From NCBI RefSeq assembly GCF_028389875.1, contig NC_084674.1:11131501-11195500 (forward strand): a DNA stretch of 64,000 bases. The letters are read 5' to 3'. Within the stretch, counting starts at the first letter, position 1. Every line of letters starts with the position of its first letter. Shown here piece after piece: positions 34,001 through 37,000 of the stretch. Position numbers and translations under genes: made by a program. Source of the stretch: Rhea pennata. Taxonomy: Eukaryota; Chordata; Aves; Rheiformes; Rheidae. The notes beneath the pieces were generated by a model. That model ran no database searches and was not told the DNA's origin. It saw only the letters and a list, made by a program, of their open reading frames with translations.

Positions 34001-37000
34001 ACTCTGCATACGTCAGTGCTGCTCGTGACTGGATGCCGAGACAAATGCCAGCGGTCTGGTGTCACCGAGGGAGGGGAATCCTCATGGCTGCAGGAGAGCA
34101 GACAGATGTCTACGGTTTGCCAACAAGAAGCATAATTATGGCAGGCTGTTTGTACCCCTGCTACTCTGGCGAGTGGCAGAACTGATCCCCACAAAAGTGC
34201 AGTGATTACTGAGATCTGAACATAACTGTTGTCCCTGAATGCCTGGTGCAGGTCTGCAGGACTCTTCACGTTGGTGGGCCTGACTCCTTTCCAAGCCTGA
34301 TGAGGAGCTCATCACAAGTATAGCCAGTGATGAGCAGTGCATCTGTATTAATGGGAACATGATGATTTCCCACTCTGCATTTTATTTTATTTTTTAAACA
34401 TGTTTCTCCCTGTATACCCAGAAGAAATAGTATTTTCCTTACAAAGAGTATGCCTTAGGCACTCACTCAGTGTTGTTCCTTTCTCTGCAGATGGAATCGT
34501 ACGGAGTTCATGGCAGATGACCCCAGGACGAACGCAACATTGTGTTCCCAATCCCAACCAGTCCCTTGGTGCCGTCACACACTTAGAGTTAAGTTCTCAC
34601 CTGCTGCAAAGATTTTTTCACAAAAGGCAAAGGAAGGCCCTGGTCTGCATAGTTACCCATCAGACTTCTCAGAGAAGGACCCAGCACTTCAAATACCAAG
34701 CAAATATGTGGGAAAGAGTCATGGATTCACTAACATGAAGAAAATGCTACTACCACCGTTTTGCCCTTCACCAGAGTAGCCAAAAACCTCCTTATTCCAC
34801 CTGCGCCCACCAGCCACTTTCATGTGCCCAGGTCCAACTGCTGCCCTGCTCATCCTCACGAGACCACAGCTTTTGGTTTTACACCATCGTGTGACCTCCG
34901 CAAGGCAAGCCAAGGCTTTGCCAACCCAGAGCTGCAGCACTCTTAGCAGAAGGATATGGAAGCCATTCTCTCCCATCATTCTGAAGTCGTCTAATAAACA
35001 GACAATGTTCTCTCCTGCCCGATCCTTCTTCTTCATACTGCTGACCTGAAGGGAGGATTCCAAGAAAGCTGCAATTAGAGGCATACATATGCACAAGGAC
35101 ATCTTGCACCCATTTTTCCCATTCTACAGACTTTTTTCTCCAGTATTTGGCACTTGAAATTTAGTGATAACAAAATCAAGAAAAACAGGCTCCAATTAAA
35201 CGAGCAGACTCCATTGCCAAGGAATGTGGTCTAGCCCTAGGTAGGAGCATCACCCTCACAGTGTCTGAATAACTCAAACCTTTCCTGTTCACAGAGTCTA
35301 GAACAGTTCCCATTGCTCATTCTACCCCATCCAGGCCCTGAAAGTGTTCCTGCCTGTGGTGAAAGGTGATTTCCATGAGGCCCCAGCTCATTTTACCCAG
35401 GAGCAATGGCTGCAATATTGCCTTCTGAAACCCGTAGCTTCCTTTGAGCAATTTCTTGCCAGTAGTTGCAAAGAGGTGAAGACCTTGCGTTTGTCTTCGG
35501 CCAGTTGAAAGCTACTGTGTCCTGTTGGGGTATGGAGCAACTTCCACATGTGGAACAACCCATTGAACTAGGCCTCTTTGGGCTGAAAAAGCGTTGGCTA
35601 CAGGCAGGTATGACAGGGATCTGTAAGATACTGAATGGTAGGAGAAGGGGTGAACACAGAGTTGTTCTTTTCTGCTCCTTTCATACAAGAACCAGGGTGT
35701 TTCACAGTAACCTAGCACTTGGCAGATTCAGAAACAAGCTGGGGAGAGATTTCTTCATGTGGCACACAGGTAATTGGTGGCAAATCTTGTCACAGGGTGC
35801 TGTGGATGCTGAAGGCTGCATGGGCTCATAGCAAAGTGAGACAGGTCCCTGGAAGATAAACCCTTTGAGGACTGCTGCCTACATAGTGTCTCCTTTGGCC
35901 CAAGAAATCTCCCGTTGAAAACTGCTGGAGGCCGGGGAAGTGTTCAGTGGGAGCAGCACTCTGCTTACCCTGTCCTTACGGGTGTAAGGACACCTGGCCA
36001 CTGCTGGCCCGGGATGCGGGGCTGGGTGAACCCCTAGTCTGCCGCAGCGCGGGTGCTTTTGGCACCCCCAGATCTTTTATTAGCACCAGCAGCATCTGTG
36101 CGGTGAGTTACGTTGTGAGTTTGCTCCCACAGGACACTGACGGTGGTTCGGCAGTGAGTGCCTTGGTACACTGCAGTAACTGGGGGATTCCGGTTTGGTT
36201 TGTTGCGCAGTGCCAGGAGGTTTTGCTGAGATGACAGAGGTGTGCAGCCATGGAAGGTGGGAGACTGCCTCTTCTGGCAGCGTTACAGGAACCGACCACC
36301 TTATACTGACGGAAATGGCCCTGGGAACCAGCTGTATTCTGTTGAGTAGGAGTGTCTTTCAGAGAGTATTCATAATAAATTAAAGGTAAGGCTTGGTCTA
36401 TACACAGTATTGTGCTGATGTGCAGTAAAGCACCTCTTTGATTACATTAAATTAGTGCTACTTTGTACTTCCTCTTGCATGATAAGTCTGGCTTATATCC
36501 CTTTGGATATGGCCTGCAGATTTGCAGGTGCAAACTACACCTTTTTCAGACCTGTTGGAAAAAGGCCTCACAGTAATTTGAAAGGCAAAATTTAATGACT
36601 TTTTATTCATATCAAGCTGATGTAACTTCTTATTTAGGCAAACTTTAAGAATTGTAACCATGAGCTTTCTAGAACTAGCAGGTCAAGCTACCTTCAAAGG
36701 TAAGTAGATGAAACTCAGACACATGCCAGACCCATTGGCAATGGCAGAAGGAAGCTTTCTGAATTCAGATGTTTATTATATTTTGCCGTATCCTACCATG
36801 TTTTGCAGTTGTCTCCATTTATTTCACTATCTTTGTTGCAATAGAGTGATACCATCTGAGCTGGGAACTACACAAACACAGTGGAAACATTTCCACCTCC
36901 TGTCTTCCTCCTGTTTTTTTCCTGTTGATTAGCCAGCCTGTACTTCTGCAAGTTCCTCCTGCTTACTGGATTTTGGTCTCAGCTGAAAGGAATGGGCCTA

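Follow-up and report, generated by a model that had tools for sequence, protein, structure and literature searches.

Does an SR-protein kinase (SRPK) gene on contig NC_084674.1 of Rhea pennata carry an intron of the minor spliceosomal class, and if so, is this a peculiarity of one gene or a property of the family? The question has some consequence, as enzymes by which the major splicing machinery is tuned would then need the minor spliceosome to make their own mRNA. A first-pass annotation had proposed a U12-type AT-AC intron at positions 34708..34957 and left aside whether paralogous SRPK genes share it. Here we consider, in turn, the identity of the gene, its place in the SRPK family, the class of the intron and the consequences that its subtype would be expected to have.

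The kinase gene lies on the minus strand of the window, by which we mean the whole 64,000-nucleotide stretch analysed. Ten exons can be read from 38001 down to 27863, yielding 377 stop-free codons followed by a TAA. The most upstream of these (37893..38001; the start codon lies further upstream) encodes the glycine loop and is followed by the exon with the VAVK lysine (37238..37325), an exon that ends on the first base of a histidine codon (34958..35045), the exon that supplies the rest of this histidine and ICLVFEVLG...KKSLQQ (34601..34707), the exons encoding the HTDIKPEN catalytic loop (32139..32301), ADLGSACW (30769..30854) and IWSTGCL (30063..30170), two more kinase exons (29537..29606 and 29360..29452) and the last coding exon (27863..28086, with its stop at 27863-27865). 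All borders of the nine introns are intact; eight introns are GT-AG with ordinary donors that lack TATCCTT, and one is AT-AC. The encoded protein is co-linear with the kinase domain of human SRPK1 (182 identical among 331 aligned residues), and its best PDB matches are chains of SRPK1 and of SRPK2 (4e-114 to 1e-108), followed by yeast Sky1 (8e-84). The catalytic residues (glycine loop, HTDIKPEN catalytic loop, DLG) are retained and, judged by its sequence, this is an intact SRPK-family kinase gene. CpG-rich stretches are present at 24000-28500, spanning and extending past the 3' end of the gene, and at 41000-43000.

The 1.27 Gb genome (G000) was searched with an SRPK1 segment, which gave 80 matches at E <=10, and 20 of these were opened as loci. 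When the opened loci were scanned on both strands for HTDIKPEN or ADLG(N/S)ACW, three places were recovered: the window gene, an SRPK1-like gene at C25:3.417-3.419 Mb, identical to human SRPK1 at 159 of 169 residues over the compared part, and an SRPK2-like gene at C1:14.80-14.81 Mb. This count of three covers the opened loci; 60 matches lie outside them, two being upstream exons of the two paralogs (L032, L033), and a further, diverged SRPK may be among the rest. Two single-exon matches that resembled intronless SRPKs, C1:38571k and C25:6026k, were discarded, their sequences reading as kinases of the DYRK type. The SRPK search retrieved no loci from viral contigs and three from contigs of prokaryote genomes (L001, L002, L003). 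L001 (~4690-5566) and L002 (~1558-2410), both from bacterial MAGs (one with Brocadiia in its title), encode kinases without introns that have the SRPK-like HTDIKPEN loop, and were set aside in this search for SRPK genes of other organisms; L003 is a cyanobacterial scaffold by title, and the kinase reading covers the other two. In both L001 and L002 the frame that comes after the kinase has a GDLHG motif and resembles a metallophosphatase.

Which SRPK the window gene represents can be approached through its neighbours. Upstream, in the same orientation, lies a plexin-B1-like gene (window 48745-60000, minus strand, continuing into locus L040), two exons of which were delimited at 57474-57659 and 57807-58058 (57474..58058). 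Its best PDB match is PLXNB1, both for the cytoplasmic part (234 bits vs 146 for PLXNB2) and for the sema part, an assignment made among PDB matches that do not include PLXNB3; a search of the genome with one plexin exon returned the window locus, one locus at 59% and three at 45-47%. Some 57 kb past the plexin there is a 32-residue match to TMA7, the sole one in the genome, and in the downstream direction, about 45 kb from the kinase gene, are minus-strand exons (L036, G000:C12:11113348-11114318) of a SETD5-like gene. The SETD5-like query also matches a KMT2E-like exon at C1:14741729, about 59 kb from the SRPK2-like gene; human SRPK2 adjoins KMT2E, a relative of SETD5. PLXNB1, TMA7 and SETD5 are human chromosome 3p genes and not Xq28 genes. 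The arrangement has the look of block duplication, the window gene apparently belonging to the block that corresponds to human 3p and not to that of Xq28. The synteny is local, given that a PFKFB-type gene on the same chromosome (C12, 22.45-22.46 Mb) is 11 Mb from the window SRPK, PFKFB4 being a human 3p21 gene. A search for SSR4, aimed at the SRPK3 region, gave no match in this genome nor in any control and is hence uninformative. Among the repeats of the region, a reverse-transcriptase frame at 50906-51602 (plus strand), the first part of which had no match in Pfam, and a second similar copy nearby (L040, ~1724-3298) presumably belong to CR1-like LINEs.

A rival account of the gene, which has a real though less than even chance of being correct, is that it is the ordinary orthologue of SRPK3, relocated. 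Human SRPK3, too, stands beside a B-type plexin, PLXNB3, with IDH3G also in its neighbourhood, and the three SRPK loci recognised among those opened in the assembly would fit this account as well. It is opposed by the best match of the plexin being PLXNB1, within a comparison in which PLXNB3 did not figure, and by the position of that plexin on one stretch with the TMA7 match and the SETD5-like gene, both presumed 3p genes. Our literature search on SRPK3 with PLXNB3 in birds returned no paper. The duplicated-block pattern with its 3p-type neighbours leads instead to the suggestion of a fourth SRPK: the neighbours point, as a possibility, to a vertebrate member that is missing from human, although the PFKFB-type gene 11 Mb away weighs against it. 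If this is true, the vertebrate SRPK set exceeds the human three, the number of members, SRPK1-3, given in the published account of this 2R family as far as it was covered (PMC4042849).

The docking groove of SRPK1 is formed by residues that include D548, D564, E571 and K615 (PMC11211491, PMC10878513, each covered in part). With the numbering fixed by the fit of six SRPK1 residues (D548, D564, E571, K602, K604 and K615), the window protein has Q, D, E and R at these four sites, two of them identical; the changes D548 to Q (exon 29537-29606) and K615 to R (exon 27863-28086) may alter substrate docking. The loss of D548, together with an identity to the SRPK1-like protein of 88/167, vs 146/170 for the SRPK2-like protein, is what one might see in a decaying copy whose intron is without function. 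We regard such decay as improbable, because the ten exons stay open over their whole length, all nine introns have kept their borders, and the glycine loop, the catalytic loop and the DLG are preserved.

The AT-AC intron is 250 bp long and interrupts the histidine codon in phase 1. Its donor, ATATCCTTC (34949..34957, minus strand), fully matches the minor-intron consensus (A/G)TATCCTTY, and the candidate branch site, TCCATGAC (34718..34725, minus strand), departs at one position from TCCTTRAC, the sequence that minor-intron branch sites approximate. The branch A, at 34719, is followed by 11 bases of intron, within the spacing of about 10-13 bases upstream of the exon that is typical of minor introns. 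Read on the minus strand, the junction is exon GGCTTCC / ATATCCTTCT ... GAATCCATGACTCTTTCCCAC / ATATTTGCTTGG, and the 3' end of the intron is CCCAC. The motifs claimed by the first-pass annotation for the 5' end, the 3' end and the branch, with its A 11 bases before the end, were thus all found in place, and 34708..34957 combines a minor-type donor, a branch site at the appropriate spacing and AT-AC termini that restore the frame.

The two paralogs provide the most telling comparison, and they answer in the affirmative the question that the annotation had left aside. The SRPK1-like gene has an intron of 1487 bp, C|GTATCCTTTTGT ... TTTTCCTTGACCGAGTTCCAG|AT, with donor GTATCCTTTT, branch site TCCTTGAC and a CAG acceptor, and the SRPK2-like gene has one of 5227 bp, C|GTATCCTTTTGA ... 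TTATCCTTAATTAAATCTCAG|AT, with donor GTATCCTTTT, branch site TCCTTAAT and likewise a CAG acceptor; both have GT-AG termini. In all three SRPK genes found, the minor-type intron falls in the same histidine codon, in phase 1, and ends 11 bases after the branch A. Introns 1 and 2 are also common to the three genes in place and phase and have major-type donors, and all paralog introns read besides the minor-type one (three in the SRPK1-like gene and two in the SRPK2-like gene) have ordinary GT donors without TATCCTT. Such recurrence at one codon, in both sister genes and hence in three of three SRPK genes found, makes the intron look real, of a known kind and an old feature of the family; most simply, it would have been present before the three genes split. 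By this reading the SRPK family has a conserved minor intron, represented in the window gene by 34708..34957 with its AT-AC subtype, and we hold with high confidence that the gene carries a minor-class intron at an ancient site of the family, which the minor spliceosome would remove. The proposal of a U12-type AT-AC intron in an SRPK gene is in this respect borne out.

AT-AC termini alone leave the spliceosome class undecided, and the major spliceosome also removes a rare class of AT-AC introns, whose sodium channel examples invariably have G at position +5, according to the part of the study covered here (PMC2831892). For the window intron, removal by the major spliceosome is highly unlikely: it has C at +5, which argues against that rare class, within a complete TATCCTT, and introns with minor-type donors and branch sites stand at the same place in both paralogs.

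The choice of borders was examined by enumerating all junctions within 34601-35045 that have a donor after 40-199 bases, an acceptor at most 60 bases before the end and an intron of at least 30 bases; frames containing stops were dropped, and the remainder were scored with BLOSUM62 against human SRPK1. The AT-AC pair 34708/34957 scored 145, the highest among canonical classes, compared with best scores of 94 for GT-AG, 107 for GC-AG, 95 for AT-AG and 127 for GT-AC. That the exons are joined instead across a GT-AG (or GC-AG) intron of the usual type, giving a protein that differs slightly, is a most remote prospect, for while some such pairs keep an open frame, their best scores are 94 and 107 vs 145, and the pairs listed remove or replace the conserved core block. 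None of the GT-AG pairs enumerated preserves the kinase core; the earlier assertion that GT-AG splicing runs straight into TGA holds for some pairs, while others stay open yet lose the HICLVFEV core. The AT-AC cut is the sole canonical one among seven neighbouring cuts that give the identical protein, the borders lying in a short repeat. Four cuts score higher (146-148, with one residue changed), but their termini, TC-CC, CT-TT, TT-TC and CC-CC, are not known to serve any spliceosome. One more of the seven runs from AT to AT; it would require ATCCTTCTG as donor, which is not the minor consensus. The motifs themselves were also compared with chance. ATATCCTTY occurs once in the window (0.86 expected), which is unsurprising on its own, and RTATCCTT four times (3.0 expected). 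A donor, a branch site and a YAC combined at the spacing of minor introns appeared in 1 of 200 dinucleotide-shuffled windows, frame restoration at the homologous codon not being required, and a looser form of the combination in 43 of 200. Stronger evidence than these shuffle statistics comes from the two paralogs, with their introns at the same codon.

Of the RNA components that such splicing would require, U12 and U6atac have recognisable genes in the assembly: among the best candidates scored, at least one U12 locus and at least three U6atac loci exceeded the threshold. The three full-length U6atac-like loci are at G000:C7:14419005, C18:10923738 and C41:3255748, and some of them may be pseudogenes, the human genome having a single functional U6atac gene. 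In the expected course of events, U11/U12 would bind the ATATCCTT donor and the TCCATGAC branch site together, U6atac would take over the donor, and U4atac/U6atac.U5 would remove the intron. Were the intron retained, the frame (ORF 34719..35123) would stop at its first in-frame TGA, 34719..34721 on the minus strand, which lies inside the branch site and ends on the branch A itself. As this stop precedes the catalytic loop, no active kinase is predicted from an intron-retaining transcript.

Among the three SRPK genes found, the AT-AC subtype is confined to the window gene, the SRPK1-like and SRPK2-like introns being GT-AG. On the simplest reading the subtype would have switched on one side, AT-AC being either the ancestral form or a gain. 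In human cells, depletion of CENATAC affected 92% of A-type vs 24% of G-type minor introns, in a study whose main text does not mention SRPK (PMC8280824). As the carrier of an A-type intron, the window gene should need CENATAC more than its GT-AG paralogs do and, by analogy with the human cell data, its output should drop selectively when CENATAC is limiting, while that of the paralogs should for the most part not. The most inclusive hypothesis, for which we see about even chances, is that of an 'SRPK4' that originated by genome duplication, lies between PLXNB1 and SETD5 and was lost in human, and that, alone among the three SRPKs in having an AT-AC intron, would be under a CENATAC-dependent control largely escaped by its paralogs. 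If this is true, the three paralogs would form a natural set in which to ask whether the output of a gene is regulated by the subtype of its minor intron. The difference in subtype at the same codon in itself makes A-type vs G-type control testable, with the paralogs as internal controls.

Human SRPK1 is listed among significant U12-intron genes in a preprint (PMC12637451, Table 2, covered in part), and the occurrence of such an intron in a gene of the SRPK family is therefore not new. In the portions covered of the literature on SRPK and minor introns and on minor-intron subtypes, supplementary tables and U12DB being outside this scope, we found no SRPK intron position, presence in paralogs or difference in subtype. 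The window intron is a well-conserved case of a known kind, and the difference in subtype between paralogs is its interesting aspect. Its closest counterparts, in the SRPK1-like and SRPK2-like genes (L032, L033), share with it the codon, phase, minor-type donor and branch site and the 11-base spacing, and differ in being GT-AG and longer. Subtype switches have precedent, as both subtypes likewise occur in 36 of nearly one thousand clusters of U12DB, in the part of that report covered (PMC2831892); here the two subtypes are found between paralogs within one genome. With the CENATAC-dependent A-type (AT-AN) introns it has the AT-AC termini in common, its own dependence being a prediction. Finally, genes of signalling kinases of the MAPK family also carry U12 introns, according to the sections covered of the same preprint that lists SRPK1 (PMC12637451); the SRPK family differs from them in acting on splicing factors.
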